Source of the DNA: Burkholderia sp. Bp8992
Lineage (GTDB): Bacteria; Pseudomonadota; Gammaproteobacteria; Burkholderiales; Burkholderiaceae
Length of the DNA: 64,000 nucleotides
NCBI RefSeq assembly: GCF_003853705.1
Contig: NZ_QTQI01000010.1
Coordinates: forward strand, 167,718-231,717
Direction of reading: 5' to 3'
This document shows positions 12,011-36,456 of this stretch, piece after piece (position 1 is the stretch's first letter; each line of letters starts with the position of its first letter). The notes under the pieces are model-generated. The model was not told the DNA's origin. It saw only the letters and a list, made by a program, of their open reading frames with translations, and ran no database searches. Made by a program: the position numbers and the translations under genes.

Positions 12011-15000
12011 TTACTTCGCGACGACGACCGGAATCCCCTTCAGCATCCCCGCGCCCTTCATCTCGTCAAGCGCGTGCTGCACGGCCGCGCTCGTCGCCGC
12101 GTCGATGCCGAGCTGCAGCGCGAGCTCGCGCTCCGCGCGCTTCACGCCGGCCAGGTTGCGCACCTTCACGTGGCCGAAGCCGCGCACGCGGGCGTGCAGG
12201 TCGGCCAGTTGCACGACCTGCGCCGCATTGCCGGCCGTCATCGCGGCGAATGCGCGCGTGAGCGTCGTCTCGTAGTCGTCGGCGAGTGCGCGCTCCATCT
12301 TGCGCTCGACGGTGCGGCCGAACGGATCGAGCCCCGTGCCGCGCAGGCTGCGCACGCGCGCCAGCACGCCGAACACCGGCCACATCCACTGGCCGAACAC
12401 ACGCTTCTTCGGCGTGCTGCCGTCGCGGCCGGCCTTCGCGACCGTCGGCGGCGCAAGGTTGAACTTCACGCGATACGCCTGCCCCGGCACGCCTTCGAAC
12501 TGCGCTTCGAGCGCCGTGCGGAATGCGTCGTCCGTGTACAGCCGCGCGACCTCGTATTCGTCCTTCACCGCGAGCAGCCGGTAGAACGTCGTCGCGACCG
12601 CGCGCGTCAGCGCGTCGTCGCCCTTCGCGCGTGCGGCGTTCACGAGCGCCCGGTAGCGCTCGACGTAACGCGCGCCGCCGTAGCCGTCGAGTCGCGCTTC
12701 GCGATCGGCGATCAGCTCGGCGAGCGTCTCCGGCGCGGCACGTGCGGCCACCGTGTGACGCGCATTCCACAACGCATCGAGGCCCGCCGCGTCGCCGGCC
12801 GCCATCCGGCCGATCGAGAACGCGAGCTTGTTCATCGGCACCGCGACGTTGTTCAGCTCGATCGCGCGCATCATCGCGGCGAGCGACACCGGCACGAGGC
12901 CGAGCTGCCACGCATAGCCGAGCATCAGGATATTCGCGCCGATCGAATCGCCGAGGAATTTCGCGGCGAGCGCCTGCGCGTCGCAGCTCGACAGGTAGCC
13001 GTCGCCGGCCGCATGGTGCATCTTCTCGAGCAGCGCGTCCGCATGCAGGTTCGCGTCGGGGTTCTGCACGAACGACGCGTTCGGGATCCGGTGCGTGTTG
13101 ACGACGATCCGCGTGCGCTCGTGGCGCACCGTCTGCAGCGCTTCGGCGCTCGCGCCGACGACCATGTCGCACGCGAGCAGCACGTCGGCCTGCTGCGTGT
13201 CGATACGCACCTGGTTCAGCCACCGGTCGCTCGACGCGATCCGCACGAACGACAGCACCGAGCCGCCTTTCTGCGCAAAGCCCATGAAGTCGAGGACCGA
13301 CGCGCTCTTGCCTTCGAGGTGCGCGGCCATGCTGATCAGCGCGCCGACCGTCACGACACCCGTACCGCCGACACCCGTCACGAGCATGTCGAACGGCGCC
13401 GCGTCGAGATGGGTCGCCGGCACCGGCAGCCCGTCGACGCGCGCGGCGAGCGCCGCTTCGTCGAACGCGGCGCCGGCCGCCTTCTTCAGCGCCGCGCCTT
13501 CGACCGTCACGAAGCTCGGGCAGAAGCCGTTCACGCACGAATAGTCCTTGTTGCACGACGACTGGTCGATGCGGCGCTTGCGGCCGAGCGGCGTCTCGAG
13601 CGGCTCGACCGACAGGCAGTTCGACTGCACGCCGCAGTCGCCGCAGCCTTCGCACACGGCGTCGTTGATGAACAGGCGCTTGTCCGGGTCGGGGAATTCG
13701 CCTTTCTTGCGGCGGCGGCGCTTCTCGGCCGCGCAGGTCTGGTCGTAGATCAGCACGGTGACGCCCGGCGTCTCGCGCAGCTCGCGCTGCACCGTGTCGA
13801 GCTCGCTGCGGTGATGGAACGTCGTGCCCGTCGGAAACTGCCCGTGATGGCCGTCGTACTTCTCCGGCTCGTCGGACACGACGACGAAGCGCGACACGCC
13901 CTCCGCCTCGACCTGCCGTGCGATCTGCGGCACCGAGATGCTGCCGTCGACCGGCTGGCCGCCCGTCATCGCGACCGCGTCGTTGTAGAGGATCTTGTAC
14001 GTGATGTTCGCTTTCGCGGCGACCGCCTGGCGGATCGCGAGGATGCCCGAGTGGAAGTAGGTGCCGTCGCCGAGGTTCTGGAACACGTGCTTCGTGTTGG
14101 TGAACATCGCGTGCGCGGCCCAGTCGACGCCCTCGCCGCCCATCTGGATCAGCCCCGTCGTGTCGCGCTCCATCCACGACGCCATGAAGTGGCAGCCGAT
14201 CCCGGCCTGCGCGATCGAGCCTTCCGGCACCTTCGTCGACGTGTTGTGCGGGCAGCCCGAGCAGAAGTACGGCGTGCGCTTCACCGCGTCGGCTTCGTTC
14301 GACAGGATCTGCGGCGCGACCAGATCGACGACGCGTTCGCGGCGGTCGAGCGCGGGCTTGTGCCGCGCGAGCCATTCCGCGAACACCGGCAGGATGCGCG
14401 ACGGGCGCAGTTCGCCGAGCTCGGACAGCAGGCAGGCGCCGGCGGCGTCGTGCTTGCCGAGCACGCGCGGGCGCGCGCCTTCGCTGCGGTTGTACAGGTA
14501 GTCCTTGAGCTGCTGCTCGATGACCGGGCCCTTCTCCTCGATCACGAGCACTTCGTCGAGCCCGTCGACGAAGGTCTCGACGCGCGTCATCTCGAGCGGA
14601 TACGACAGGCCGACCTTGTAGATCCGCACGCCGGCGGCGTCGAGATCGGCAACCGTCAGGTCGAGGCGGCGCAGCGCTTCCATCAGGTCGAGGTGCGCCT
14701 TGCCGCAGGTGACGATGCCGACGTTCGCGTGCGTGCTCGGCGCGATCCACTTGTCGATGCTGTTGGTGCGCGCGAAATGGCGCACCGCGTCGAGCTTCGC
14801 GGCGAGGCGCGCCTCGATCGTCAGGCTCGGCAGATCGGGCCAGCGGTTGTGCAGGCCGCCCGACGGCGGCGTGAAGCCTTCCGGTGCCGGCCACTGCGTC
14901 TGCAGCGCGTCGAGGTCGACGGTCGAGCCCGACTCGACCGTTTCCGAGATCGCCTTGAAGCCGACCCATGCGCCCGAGTAGCGCGACAGCGCCCAGCCGT

Positions 15001-15583
15001 ACAGGCCGAATTCGAGCATGTCGGCGATGTTCGCCGGGTTCACGACCGGCATGTGCCACGCGATCATCGCGAAGTCGCTCTGGTGCGGCATCGACGACGA
15101 CACGCAGCCATGGTCGTCGCCCGCGACGACCAGCACGCCGCCGTGCGGCGACGAACCGTACGCGTTGCCGTGCTTCAGCGCGTCGCCGGCGCGATCGACG
15201 CCCGGACCCTTGCCGTACCACATCGCATACACGCCCTCGACCGTGCGCTCGGGATCGGCTTCGACGCGCTGCGTGCCGAGCACGGCCGTGCCGCCGAGTT
15301 CCTCGTTGATCGCCGGCAGGAAGCGCACGCCGCTGGTATCGAGCAGTTTCTTCGCCTTCCACAGCTGCTGGTCGACCATGCCGAGCGGCGAGCCGCGATA
15401 GCCGCTGACGAAGCCGGCCGTGTTGAGTCCCTGCTCGATGTCGACCGTGCGCTGCATCAGCAGCAGGCGGACCAGCGCCTGCGTGCCGGTCAGGAAGATC
15501 CGGCCGCGCGTCGCGGTCAGGTTGTCGGTCAGGCGGTAGTCGGACAGGGCAGGCGTGCCATCGACGGGCAGGCGGGCGGTCAT
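12011..15583 (-). CDS. Indolepyruvate ferredoxin oxidoreductase, fused subunits
   Basis: Large single-chain enzyme of 1190 residues. It oxidatively decarboxylates arylpyruvates (indolepyruvate, phenylpyruvate) to aryl-acyl-CoA with ferredoxin as acceptor. The N-terminal half carries the thiamine-dependent subunit (VSGYRGSPLGMVDQQLW near residue 60; CSGCPHNTSTKVPEG; GGEGVDWAAH; YNDAVAMTGGQPVDG). The centre has Fe-S cysteines (CEGCGDCGVQSNC, then CNKDYSCVNGFCPS). The later part carries the gamma-like domain starting VTGVGGTGVVTVGA. It ends with a helical region found in proteobacterial fused forms. It is transcribed alone with its own terminator and likely works in aromatic amino-acid breakdown. 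Confidence 0.92.
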   Translation of the reverse strand: MTARLPVDGTPALSDYRLTDNLTATRGRIFLTGTQALVRLLLMQRTVDIEQGLNTAGFVSGYRGSPLGMVDQQLWKAKKLLDTSGVRFLPAINEELGGTAVLGTQRVEADPERTVEGVYAMWYGKGPGVDRAGDALKHGNAYGSSPHGGVLVVAGDDHGCVSSSMPHQSDFAMIAWHMPVVNPANIADMLEFGLYGWALSRYSGAWVGFKAISETVESGSTVDLDALQTQWPAPEGFTPPSGGLHNRWPDLPSLTIEARLAAKLDAVRHFARTNSIDKWIAPSTHANVGIVTCGKAHLDLMEALRRLDLTVADLDAAGVRIYKVGLSYPLEMTRVETFVDGLDEVLVIEEKGPVIEQQLKDYLYNRSEGARPRVLGKHDAAGACLLSELGELRPSRILPVFAEWLARHKPALDRRERVVDLVAPQILSNEADAVKRTPYFCSGCPHNTSTKVPEGSIAQAGIGCHFMASWMERDTTGLIQMGGEGVDWAAHAMFTNTKHVFQNLGDGTYFHSGILAIRQAVAAKANITYKILYNDAVAMTGGQPVDGSISVPQIARQVEAEGVSRFVVVSDEPEKYDGHHGQFPTGTTFHHRSELDTVQRELRETPGVTVLIYDQTCAAEKRRRRKKGEFPDPDKRLFINDAVCEGCGDCGVQSNCLSVEPLETPLGRKRRIDQSSCNKDYSCVNGFCPSFVTVEGAALKKAAGAAFDEAALAARVDGLPVPATHLDAAPFDMLVTGVGGTGVVTVGALISMAAHLEGKSASVLDFMGFAQKGGSVLSFVRIASSDRWLNQVRIDTQQADVLLACDMVVGASAEALQTVRHERTRIVVNTHRIPNASFVQNPDANLHADALLEKMHHAAGDGYLSSCDAQALAAKFLGDSIGANILMLGYAWQLGLVPVSLAAMMRAIELNNVAVPMNKLAFSIGRMAAGDAAGLDALWNARHTVAARAAPETLAELIADREARLDGYGGARYVERYRALVNAARAKGDDALTRAVATTFYRLLAVKDEYEVARLYTDDAFRTALEAQFEGVPGQAYRVKFNLAPPTVAKAGRDGSTPKKRVFGQWMWPVFGVLARVRSLRGTGLDPFGRTVERKMERALADDYETTLTRAFAAMTAGNAAQVVQLADLHARVRGFGHVKVRNLAGVKRAERELALQLGIDAATSAAVQHALDEMKGAGMLKGIPVVVAK

Positions 15584-15918
15584 GGGGGATGTCTCCGGAT
15601 TGTGCTGTTCTGGGCTGCGCGGCGGGGCGTCGGGCGACGCGTGACCGGCGGCAGCGAATGGCTCTATTTTTTCGTGCGCAGCCGAGAATGTTTTTTCTCA
15701 TCTTGCTCGGGCGGGGCTGTAGCGAGAAAAACTGCGCAGGTTTTCGCGTGGATTTGAGAGAGTTTTCGCGCGCGGTGGTGGGGGCGCGGTTGGCGGGTGT
15801 CGACGCGGCCGGCCGTCTTGCCGGGAAAACCGATGCGCGCTTGAGGGCATCGCCATGGCCACGCGATGGGTGCTCGAACCCCGTCTGCCAAGGGTTTCGA
15901 GGGCTTTTGGCAGTCACC
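15584..15918. other. Upstream region of the indolepyruvate oxidoreductase
   Basis: This region holds the promoter of the leftward oxidoreductase gene, next to a non-coding repeat array. It contains relatively T-rich stretches (around 15664-15700) and loosely symmetrical GAGAA / TTCTC elements around 15687-15702. No ORF here has convincing codon structure, and no defined operator was recognised. Confidence 0.35.
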
Positions 15919-17241
15919 CTCACCGTTGAATTGCACAGGGTTCCGATTGGTCGAGGGCGCCGGATGTCCACAACGCCGCGCCCTTCGCGCCGATCGGGTT
16001 CGCGCGCTCACCGTTCGATTGCACAGCATTTCGAGTGGCGTCGGGGCCGGGATGTCCACATCCGGAATCGGCATGCCGTTCGCCCGGGTGTCGACGCTCA
16101 CCGTTGGAATTCACAGCGCGACGAGTGGGTCCTGACGGTGGATATCCACATCCTGGCCGGCTCGTTTCGACGATCCGCTGTTCACCCTCACCGTTCGAAT
16201 ACACAGGGTCGTGAGTGGGTTCGTCGGGCGGATATCCACGCCGGAATACGCATGCTGCGCGACTACCGCTTCGCACTCACCGTTGAAATGCACAGGGCTT
16301 CGACTGGCTGCGGCGGCTGTTTTCCACGGCCGGACCTGCATTGCCAGCGGGCCGTGCGCGTATGCTCACCGGTGAAAATCACAGCGCTTCGAGTGGCTTG
16401 GGGGGCCGGATATCCACATCGGGGAAAATCGGCCGATCGCTCGCGGAGGCGCGTTTCATCGAGCGCCGGCGACGCGGCAATCCATGCCGGAGGCGGCTGG
16501 TCACCCGATCGGACGCTGACACTCACCGTCGAAAAACACAGTGCCGCGAGTCGTTTCGGCGGGCGGATATCCACACTGAAATGCGCACGGTGCGCCTGAC
16601 ACGGCACGTGCTCCAGGCGACGTCATCAGCCGGACGGCCGCGCCCGGACGGGCTGCCGGCCAATGATGCGCGGATACTCACCGTTGAATTCCACAGCGCG
16701 TCGAGTCGCTTGGGAGATCGCGAATGCGCGACGAAATTCGCACGTTCCGGACCACGTGCCCGCGCTTGCCGTTAGAATGCACGCCCGCTCGATCGCGATC
16801 CGGACCCGGATATCGGCGTCGCGACGCACATCGGGCTCGGTCGCGCATTCTTGCATTCCGTCAGAATGCGCGGCGCGCCGAATCACGGCAAAGGCCGGCG
16901 AGCCTTGCTGGAACTGGCGCGTCGCGCGATCGGCTTCGACACTCACCGTTGGATTTCACAGCATTTCGCTTGGTCTCGGAGCGAGTTGTCCACACCCTTC
17001 TTCACGTATTGCGCGACATCAGGCGATCCTCACCGGTGAAATCCACAGCGCGCCGAGTCGTTTCGGAGCGAGGATATCCACAACCGGTTGCGCGACGGGA
17101 TCGCCATGCGCACATCGGCGAACGCCTCGGTGCACCGCAACCGGGGACACCCGCAAAGGCTTGTCCGGACTGCCTCGGCGGCACCCTCACCGTTCAAATG
17201 CACAGCGTTTCGAGTCGTCGTCTAGCGGGTTGTCCACATCC
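15919..17241 (+). repeat. Array of degenerate 56-bp bipartite repeat units (at least 11 clear copies)
   Basis: Non-coding array. Clear units begin at 15919, 16007, 16097, 16187, 16276, 16365, 16522, 16677, 16942, 17029 and 17186. All eleven have CTCACCG, then 8 variable bases, then CACAG. Most continue with a TTTCGAGTGG/CG-like segment. Ten carry a TCCAC box (TCCACA in eight, TCCACG in two) 32-33 bp after the CACAG start, most often inside GGATATCCACA or GTTGTCCACA; the unit at 16677 lacks it. More degenerate copies sit at about 16765 and 16853. Start-to-start spacing is 87-90 bp, or 155-157 bp in three places. Two sub-palindromes recur: TCACCGGTGA (units 6 and 10) and GGATATCC. All units have the same orientation. 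Sequence between units is not conserved. Frames are broken and spacing is not a multiple of three, so it is not coding. The function is unknown; a protein-binding array is my inference. Confidence 0.9.
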
Positions 17242-17285
17242 GCTCATCGATGCGCGATCGCGCCGGCACGCGCGCCCGGGCAATG

Positions 17286-17843
17286 TCATTCGGCAATCGA
17301 CCGGATGACCGCTGCCGGATTGCCGCCGACCAGCGTATTCGGCGGAACGTCGCGCGTGACGACCGCCGCGGCCGCGACGACCGAATTCTCGCCGACCGTC
17401 ACGCCACCGATGATCGTCGCGCCGGCGCCGATCCAAACGTTCCGTTCGATCACGATCGGCTTCGCGACGACGCCGTCGCGCCGCCGCGAAGGCTCGATCG
17501 GATGACCGGACGTGATCAGGCTGACGTTCGGGCCGATCATCACGTCGTCGCCGATCTCGAGTCCGCCCAGGTCGTAGAACGTGCAGTTCTGGTTGACGAA
17601 CACGTTGCGCCCGAGCTTCATGCCGGTGCCACCCGTCGCGTGAAACGGCGGGATCAGCACGAAGCCGTCGTCGACCTGCGTGCCGATCAGTTCTCCGAAC
17701 AATGCACGAACCTCGCATGCATCGTCGAACGTCAGACGGTTGAGCCGCGCGGTGATCGCCATCGCGCGCTTGACCTCGGCCACCATGGCCGCCGATTCCG
17801 GTGTTCTCCGCGAAATGATCGTGGTGCGATCGTCGTTTGCCAT
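17286..17843 (-). CDS. Sugar O-acetyltransferase (maltose/galactoside acetyltransferase family)
   Basis: Left-handed beta-helix acetyltransferase of 185 residues that uses acetyl-CoA to acetylate a sugar hydroxyl. Hexapeptide repeats run from about residue 75 to 180 (GRNVFVNQNCTFYDLGGLEIGDD, VWIGAGATIIGGVTVGENSVVAAAAVVTRDVPP). The catalytic histidine is probably in ITSGHPIEPSRR. The family C-terminus GNPAAVIRSI is present. GGAG upstream fits the chosen start. The gene ends 44 bp from the repeat array and has a strong palindromic candidate operator in its promoter region. Substrate unknown. Confidence 0.88.
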   Translation of the reverse strand: MANDDRTTIISRRTPESAAMVAEVKRAMAITARLNRLTFDDACEVRALFGELIGTQVDDGFVLIPPFHATGGTGMKLGRNVFVNQNCTFYDLGGLEIGDDVMIGPNVSLITSGHPIEPSRRRDGVVAKPIVIERNVWIGAGATIIGGVTVGENSVVAAAAVVTRDVPPNTLVGGNPAAVIRSIAE

Positions 17844-18852: not shown

Positions 18853-19821
18853 TCACGCCTGCGCGCCCGGACCCTGCGCCGACGCGCCCGCTTCGACCAC
18901 CACGCCGGGCGACCCACGCTCGTCGGTGTCGACGTCGATCGGCACGACTTCATGAAAATACGTGTAGTCGATGTGCGTGATGCCGTCCTCGTCGTGCATC
19001 AGGTCGACATAGCGGTGACGCCAGCGGATCTCGTCATGCGCCCACGAATGACGCGCCTGCATGACCTGCGCGGTCGTTTCGTCCGAGCCCTCGATCGTGA
19101 TCAGCAACGACGCGTCGCGCGCGGCGAGCGATTCGGGCGTCTCGCCGAACAGCGCGCTCGACTCGTCAATCACGTGCATCAGGTTCCAGCCGAGCAGGAA
19201 GATCGGGTGCTCGCTGCGCACGAGCGGCAGGTCGTGGATCTTGCGCAGCGAGTAGCCCTCGTGCGTGCCTTCGATGCGCATCAGCCGCAACTTCGCCTGC
19301 GCCTCGGCAATCACGTTCTGGCGCGCATTCGCGGCGCGCACCATCAGCGTCATCCTGCCGTTCAGCGGCCGCACGATCGCGTTGCGCGCGAACAGGATCT
19401 TCGCCTGCGGCCGCGAGAAGCGCGCGAACACGAGCCCCGTGGCCAATGCGATGCTCGACATCCCGACGAAGATCTCGAACGTCGCGACGAGGTGCGCATA
19501 GACGGTCTGCGGATGCATGTCGCCGTAGCCGACGGTCGCGAGCGTCTCGACGCTGAAGAAGAACGCACCGCCGAAGCCGGCCGGCGACTGGTTCGCGATC
19601 GGCGCATGGCCGAGCAGGTAGAGCGTCGCGAAGCCGCCGTTGAGCAGCAGGAACAGCACCGCGAGCGACAGGAAGAACACGGGCCAGCTCACCGTCAGCG
19701 CGCGATGGTAGAAATCGCGCCAGCCGAGCGGCGGCATCCCGTATGCGATCACCGGGCGGGTGCCCGACCAGATCTTGCGGCCACGGCCGCGGGGGGCTGG
19801 GGAGGACGAATCGACGGTCAT
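18853..19821 (-). CDS. KirBac-type inward-rectifier potassium channel
   Basis: Homotetrameric K+ channel subunit, 322 residues from the chosen ATG. The pore has the selectivity filter TVGYGD within FFFSVETLATVGYGDMHPQT near residue 95. Two transmembrane helices flank it (WPVFFLSLAVLFLLLNGGFA and VATFEIFVGMSSIALATGLV). The cytoplasmic immunoglobulin-like Kir domain follows (FARNAIVRPLNGRMTLMVR, MVRAANARQNVIAEA, FLLGWNLMHVIDESS, IEGSDETTAQVMQARHSW). It is clearly homologous along its length to KirBac1.1 of B. pseudomallei. A start 39 bp upstream is possible, but MTVDSSSP aligns better. It may share a transcript with the upstream sulfate-binding gene. Confidence 0.93.
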   Translation of the reverse strand: MTVDSSSPAPRGRGRKIWSGTRPVIAYGMPPLGWRDFYHRALTVSWPVFFLSLAVLFLLLNGGFATLYLLGHAPIANQSPAGFGGAFFFSVETLATVGYGDMHPQTVYAHLVATFEIFVGMSSIALATGLVFARFSRPQAKILFARNAIVRPLNGRMTLMVRAANARQNVIAEAQAKLRLMRIEGTHEGYSLRKIHDLPLVRSEHPIFLLGWNLMHVIDESSALFGETPESLAARDASLLITIEGSDETTAQVMQARHSWAHDEIRWRHRYVDLMHDEDGITHIDYTYFHEVVPIDVDTDERGSPGVVVEAGASAQGPGAQA

Positions 19822-19989
19822 CGCGCGGCGCCGGTTGCAGGGAGGCGATGAGCGTAGCATGCGCGGCGGCGGTCGGGAATGCGTGCCGTCGCGAAACGGA
19901 AGTCCGCCGCGCGATGCCGAAAAAAAACCGGCCGCGTGTGCAGCCGGCTGCGATGTCGTCGTGTGGGCCGCGCGCGATGCGCGCCGTGC

Positions 19990-36374: not shown

Positions 36375-36394
36375 TCACCGTTCGAATGCAAAGC
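36375..36394 (+). repeat. Isolated half-unit of the 56-bp repeat family
   Basis: TCACCGTTCGAATGCAAAGC differs at two of 20 positions from the first half of array units such as the one at 17187 (TCACCGTTCAAATGCACAGC). It lies in the intergenic space upstream of nitronate monooxygenase, in the same plus-strand orientation. The second half with TCCACA is absent. Confidence 0.5.
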
Positions 36395-36456
36395 ATGGTG
36401 TCGGCATCCGCGCGACCGCGCGGACGCCGACGGCCCCTGGAGACTGGAGACATCAC

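Follow-up and report, generated by a model that had tools for sequence, protein, structure and literature searches.

A clade-restricted array of composite boxes on Burkholderia chromosome 1, a candidate replication-control locus

DnaA-box clusters situated away from oriC, such as datA and DARS of E. coli, carry IHF or Fis sites and affect DnaA-ATP. In Rep_3 plasmids, inc arrays, which are direct repeats of initiator sites in the form of full iterons, control the copy number in cis. For V. cholerae, crtS is described as a non-coding site whose place on chromosome 1 is conserved and which includes a putative DnaA site (PMC6090056); it is given as one site of ~70 bp (PMC4948915) and as having no similarity to other RctB motifs (PMC11711613). 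For Burkholderia, a study of the chromosome 1 and 2 (c1 and c2) origins speaks of no obvious evidence for their shared regulation and calls a crtS-like link worth exploring, and according to a supplement caption B. cenocepacia has a second c2 iteron cluster, separated from the c2 origin by 140 kb (PMC4948915). In B. cepacia, ori2 is reported to contact a large part of chromosome 1, which the authors compare with crtS, and finding "timers" in further systems is named there as an open task (PMC13342612).

Here we describe an array of short composite units in a window of 64,000 nt, the whole stretch of Burkholderia DNA analysed. Like crtS, it occupies a conserved position on the primary chromosome (7/7 genomes with array and dnaA on one contig; synteny in 10/10), DnaA-type sites appear to be present (109/154 units with at most one mismatch from TTATCCACA), and a link to the chromosome 2 initiator is proposed, for which a putative half-site (CTCACC) is found. 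It differs from crtS in having 10-17 units per main array plus a sister array instead of a single short site, in that each unit carries the presumed initiator half-site, and in that the initiator would be a Rep_3 RepA and not RctB. With datA and DARS it shares a probable cluster of DnaA boxes outside oriC, but its units are composite, led by CTCACC, repeated with a period of ~89 bp, far more numerous and clade-specific. As in inc arrays, (putative) initiator sites form direct repeats; these are, however, located on another replicon and consist of half-sites combined with DnaA-like boxes. Unlike a c2 RepA iteron array, which has the full iteron CCCGAAAA-NN-CTCACC, the units contain the CTCACC half only. 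The second c2 cluster of B. cenocepacia likewise consists of iterons outside the origin; going by its caption description, it is set apart from our array, which is on the dnaA contig and is without the CCCGAAAA half. The array would work like crtS or datA but is assigned to neither, as it lacks or leaves open defining features of both, and is filed, as a candidate, among the replication-control binding-site arrays. In a literature search covering titles and the beginnings of abstracts, no such array was described among the matches listed.

Architecture and neighbourhood of the array

Positions 15919-17238 of the window hold eleven exact CTCACCG-N8-CACAG units, the number given by the initial annotation, all on the + strand and with exact cores that span 15919-17205; the exact pattern is absent from the rest of the 64 kb. 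When as many as two mismatches were allowed, 19 core matches were observed compared to 7.5 (sd 3.2) in shuffled sequences, and 19 was reached in 0/100 shuffles. A profile built from 10 of the 11 units scored the eleven units with 35.7-63.3 bits and the next match in the window with 9.9 bits. This lone, partial match (36375-36396, E 0.037) is probably due to chance.

Units 1 to 7 are located at 15919..15972, 16007..16060, 16097..16150, 16187..16240, 16276..16328, 16365..16418 and 16522..16575, unit 8 at 16677..16708, and units 9 to 11 at 16942..16994, 17029..17082 and 17186..17238. A decayed unit (16765..16796, + strand) retains 11/18 core positions and 20/32 positions overall. Start-to-start spacing (88, 90, 90, 89, 89, 157, 155, 265, 87 and 157 bp) falls into six steps of 87-90 bp and four of 155-265 bp; the period is ~89 bp and the unit footprint 53-54 bp, which replaces the 56-bp unit assumed earlier. 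The unit is built of four constrained blocks: CTCACC comes first and CACAG second, followed by a middle block near CGTTTCGAGTSG and finally by a DnaA-like third box. The latter reads ATGTCCACA in unit 1, where all four are present, TTTTCCACG in unit 5 and TTGTCCACA in units 9 and 11. Its TCCAC occurs in ten of the eleven units, the exception being unit 8, and starts 27-28 nt past the end of CACAG; the 32-33 bp originally stated as lying beyond CACAG apply when counted from the CACAG start. ORFs overlap the array, but since orthologous arrays differ by single-base gaps in the alignment, a coding function is argued against.

That all copies point the same way is true of the window, but not of several relatives, whose arrays contain inverted blocks; unit orientation is therefore not essential. 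The occurrence of units in both orientations also counts against an explanation by clustered small RNAs, the alternative offered in the initial annotation, or by promoters of such RNAs, although promoters could well have units of regular length with short boxes at constant distances. RNAalifold found no consensus structure and no base pair over 55 units, the window has no Rfam match, and the third box resembles a DnaA box. We thus regard this explanation as very unlikely, and a structured small RNA family was rejected on the same two grounds (no conserved secondary structure in 55 units, no Rfam match in the window). The array is neither a CRISPR (eight copies are 61-77% alike to the reference copy, and inter-unit DNA is common between species) nor a REP/BIME element (one or two loci per genome among the matches listed, no RNA fold), in agreement with what had been noted before.

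To the left, the array is bordered by a gene for a ferredoxin-oxidoreductase type protein (12011..15583, - strand; Pfam PF01558, PF20169 and PF02775), which we take to be an indolepyruvate type ferredoxin oxidoreductase and which lies outside the array as a syntenic anchor. The right neighbour, also outside the array, encodes a hexapeptide-repeat transferase (17286..17843, - strand; Pfam PF00132). Both match Pfam families unrelated to each other, so the earlier description of an array between two unrelated genes holds. The main array adjoins the same left neighbour and the same right-hand genes in 10/10 genomes compared; the hexapeptide gene is present at 8/10 syntenic main arrays, with no match beside L018 and L020. 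An inward-rectifier potassium channel type gene (IRK domains) lies at 18853-19860 of the window and recurs in this neighbourhood at 10/10 syntenic loci.

Constraint, location and distribution

Constraint between species was expressed as mean identity of orthologous arrays to the window as reference, in an alignment of nine rows of which eight are independent (L012 and L048 are one genome). Identity was highest for CTCACC (0.977), followed by CACAG (0.955), the third box (0.899) and the middle block (0.878), and lower for N8 (0.826), the upstream flank (0.784), the spacer (0.684), the seventh base (0.680) and inter-unit DNA (0.655). When the two cores were compared with N8, spacer and inter-unit DNA by permutation, the difference was reached in 0/10000 cases. 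The CTCACCG core is invariant within the window, as had been claimed, but its seventh base G is unconstrained between species; likewise, the selection postulated for two short sites is borne out for the boxes, yet comprises four blocks. Because the boxes are kept between species while the DNA between them drifts, these data support selection on binding sites. Neutral spread of a repeat by duplication might explain the 89-bp period, the decayed units and the near-identity of adjacent copies in a few cases (L011, L013 and L020), but is contradicted by orthologous units that keep their boxes while the surrounding DNA changes, and we consider it extremely improbable. The platform for a sequence-specific DNA-binding protein suggested in the initial annotation is, at the sequence level, well supported by conserved boxes, non-conserved inter-box DNA and a syntenic place in 10/10 genomes.

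Main array and dnaA were found on one contig in 7/9 genomes searched (G002, G008, G009, G011, G012, G017 and G018). In these, the array lies 234-280 kb upstream of dnaA, where the distances for G012, G017 and G018 assume that the contig is a closed circle. Main arrays have 10-17 unit-profile matches each (ten arrays listed in full, L016 not among them); the sister array, built of the same units, is smaller and has 2-6 (L021-L028). The sister array is on the opposite side of dnaA, 19-33 kb away, in G008, G012 and G017; in G002 and G009 sister units lie ~300 and ~636 kb away, respectively, and among the matches listed G018 has a single sister unit at 25 kb. Main and sister arrays taken together, unit matches occur at one or two loci per genome among the matches listed. 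The proposed recurrence was thus seen at one syntenic place, but not as one locus per chromosome. The neighbourhood of one sister array (L022) includes a catalase-like gene and a sigma-70 family gene. In G009 (C1:2720513-2722062), the dnaA match consists of two segments, which correspond to profile positions 99-437 and 1-88 and are separated by ~230 bases. The distance between array and dnaA is nearly constant, with 0.252, 0.235, 0.246 and 0.246 Mb in G012, G017, G018 and G002; half of the size difference between chromosomes 1 and 2 amounts to 0.455, 0.054, 0.357 and 0.230 Mb, respectively. A tuning of array distance to chromosome sizes was not seen in these four genomes.

The pattern CTCACC-N9-CACAG-N24-32-TCCACA is present in 52/65 Burkholderia species genomes with 7-17 matches each and has 0 matches in the other 13, so array presence is all-or-none; the reversed pattern, used as control, had 0 matches in all 65. 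Together with the conserved cores, this distribution argues against the outcome (cores not conserved, or array absent in all relatives) that had been named as leaving functional constraint unsupported. In a sample of 200 genomes of the family, 10-17 matches were found in 19 genomes, all Burkholderia, and one match each in two others (control pattern: one match in the sample). The profile model agreed with the pattern search (19/200), and neither of the two revealed an array in the 24 other genera sampled. Ten of 80 named flanking-gene loci (the best 80 of 591) carry the array, for example those of B. cenocepacia, B. latens, B. territorii, B. ubonensis and B. pseudomultivorans; within the same set it is absent from loci of B. 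guangdongensis, Paraburkholderia, Caballeronia, Trinickia and Pandoraea. The syntenic place is also without array in four array-free Burkholderia (L056, L067, L091 and L108). When the flanking protein was placed in a tree of 35 rows, the 19 rows with array fell on one side of a branch (support 87/85), for which a single gain is the simplest account. The genome nearest to the window among those compared has 40% of sampled words in common with it.

Outside the genus, CTCACC combined with a DnaA-like box but without CACAG gave at most two matches per genome, except for G127 (6), G086 (5) and G171 (3). In these three genomes the matches are dispersed, and an array-like combination was rejected. 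In G127 (contigs C1 and C2), five of the matches are dispersed, identical copies of one stretch that has CTCACC and ends in a DnaA-box-like sequence, apparently a mobile repeat; the sixth is a different match. For a plasmid origin of the array we found no indication, as positions 15880-17260 of the window had no match in 72,556 plasmid records. A third-replicon RepA (at least 95% identity) is encoded in 51/52 array carriers, but also in 2/13 non-carriers. G002 has units at both loci without a close third-replicon RepA, and G015 and G249 show the reverse. Dependence of the array on the third replicon was not adopted as an explanation, since the association is confounded by descent, the 19 sampled array rows grouping in the flanking-gene tree.

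Relation of the boxes to replication origins

The motifs point to candidates for the proteins that may use this platform, namely the chromosome 2 initiator RepA and DnaA. The 109 units whose third box has at most one mismatch from TTATCCACA are made up of 81/122 main-array and 28/32 sister-array units (null 0.0003 and 0.0006), and perfect copies are more common in sister arrays (9/32) than in main arrays (4/122). TTATCCACA is the DnaA-box consensus used for B. cenocepacia (PMC4948915), and by its sequence the third box is DnaA-box-like.

The c2 iteron is reported to contain CTCACCT (PMC4948915). In 20/20 ori2 regions, CTCACC is found 17-26 times per 4 kb, compared to 1.4-2.0 expected, and forms the iteron core. 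A CTCACC/GGTGA inverted repeat precedes the c2 repA start by 63-68 bp in 56/60 loci from several genera (L040, L041, L043, L128-L144 and L146-L185; L145 left out), arranged as CTCACC-N6-GGTGA in 52 of them and with other spacing in 4. Two of the remaining 4/60 loci lack CTCACC within 90 bp, and for the other two the position of repA was not found. In Rep_3 systems, half-sites placed in inverted orientation ahead of a rep gene typically act as the initiator's autoregulatory operator. The c2 RepA belongs to the Rep_3 family (PF01051), and among proteins of solved structure a sequence search linked it to a single relative, R6K pi (E 0.0069). The inverted repeat is likely such an operator, and because of its position before repA, CTCACC very likely represents a RepA half-site.

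CACAG is enriched at ori2 in eight array carriers (19-35 per 4 kb versus 5.2-6.6 expected) and in six array-free members of the genus (9-24 versus 4.6-6.0), but not in six genomes of other genera (4-8 versus 4.7-8.0). The enrichment is hence a feature of the genus and not of array carriers alone, as if a further factor were recruited to ori2 in this genus. At oriC1, 6-7 copies occur in ~900 bp in 3/4 genomes and 5 in the fourth. CTGTGCA 7-mers, the reverse complement of TGCACAG, are reported to cluster at the c1, c2 and c3 origins, their significance being stated as unknown (PMC4948915). Full units were not found near oriC1, ori2 and ori3 at a PWM score of at least 16 (L035-L047), and six ori2/ori3-neighbourhood loci, one of which (L042) is without iterons, gave weak partial unit matches only.

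A locus dedicated to DnaA alone is conceivable, i.e. a datA- or DARS-like titration or reactivation site whose third boxes would sequester DnaA and set oriC1 timing, the CACAG boxes perhaps being weak DnaA sites and CTCACC the site of a helper factor. Besides the third box with its perfect copies and the array's proximity to dnaA, such a role is favoured by the second box, which fits WTNCACA in 99/122 main-array units; the same box, however, does so in just 14/32 sister-array units. Moreover, the most constrained box, CTCACC, is not a DnaA box, and the unit at 16677 retains the first two boxes without the third. In our view this makes a DnaA-only locus unlikely, though worth keeping in mind.

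A possible link between the two chromosomes

We propose, with a probability of roughly 45%, that the array is a chromosome 1 replication-control locus which binds the c2 initiator and DnaA and thereby couples or titrates initiation. Each unit would be a composite landing site, with CTCACC serving as half-site for the c2 RepA and the third box serving DnaA, while RepA, DnaA or a third factor could occupy the CACAG/CGTTTCGAGTSG block between them. We infer from this arrangement that many such units in the origin-proximal part of chromosome 1 would make the level or state of unbound RepA (and DnaA) depend on chromosome 1 replication. Passage of the fork would double the array, so that initiation at ori2 might be released or re-set and chromosome 2 would start shortly after chromosome 1. 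The effect could be an activation, as with crtS, or a titration of the kind associated with datA and with inc arrays of plasmids. The reading as a coupling site is suggested by the combination of c2-initiator half-sites with DnaA-like boxes, in rows near oriC1. In its most specific form, which we consider doubtful but not far-fetched, the arrays would be an inter-chromosomal timer like crtS that one Burkholderia clade evolved on its own, outside the Vibrionaceae, with RepA(c2) half-sites fused to DnaA boxes flanking oriC1, where passage of the chromosome 1 fork would license or re-set chromosome 2.

In favour of the replication-control proposal, the unit profile scores highest, among the six ori2/ori3 loci, on the repA-proximal iteron of L040 (12.5 bits, E 0.008). 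The timing is consistent with coupling, too: C periods are reported as 58 min for c1 and 51 min for c2 at ~33 kb/min (PMC4948915), and a fork starting at oriC1 would by arithmetic traverse ~245 kb in ~7 min, close to the difference in C periods, although the array position is not that of the strain measured and the agreement does not constitute a test. On the other hand, the CCCGAAAA half of the iteron is absent from the units, sharing of a 6-mer is expected by chance in ~1-2% (arithmetic), and the near-constant distance between array and dnaA shows no relation to chromosome sizes in the four genomes. Same-type RepA proteins are encoded by all 23 genus members of the family sample, including four array-free ones (91-95% identity), and by five other genera without arrays (78-92% identity); in the other nine array-free genus members a c2-type RepA match was obtained and the repA start located. 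As the same type of RepA serves array-free genomes, RepA can in general function without the array.

A carrier-specific likeness of the repA-proximal iteron to the array module was not confirmed (p 0.26 and 0.10; gapless comparison of 29 carriers, 12 array-free members and 16 loci of other genera), and the proposal does not rest on it. This result, as well as the restricted distribution, would fit a platform for a clade-specific protein, e.g. a nucleoid organiser, a tether or a partition factor, that is unrelated to replication initiation, the sharing of CTCACC with ori2 being a coincidence. Since each of the three boxes has a motif link to origins, we judge such a platform to be rather unlikely.

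For the question of how multi-chromosome bacteria outside Vibrio coordinate replication, the array provides a defined, deletable and evolutionarily constrained candidate, for which array-free relatives represent natural controls. If the replication-control proposal is true, the array may tie copying of the second chromosome to that of the first in one group of Burkholderia.
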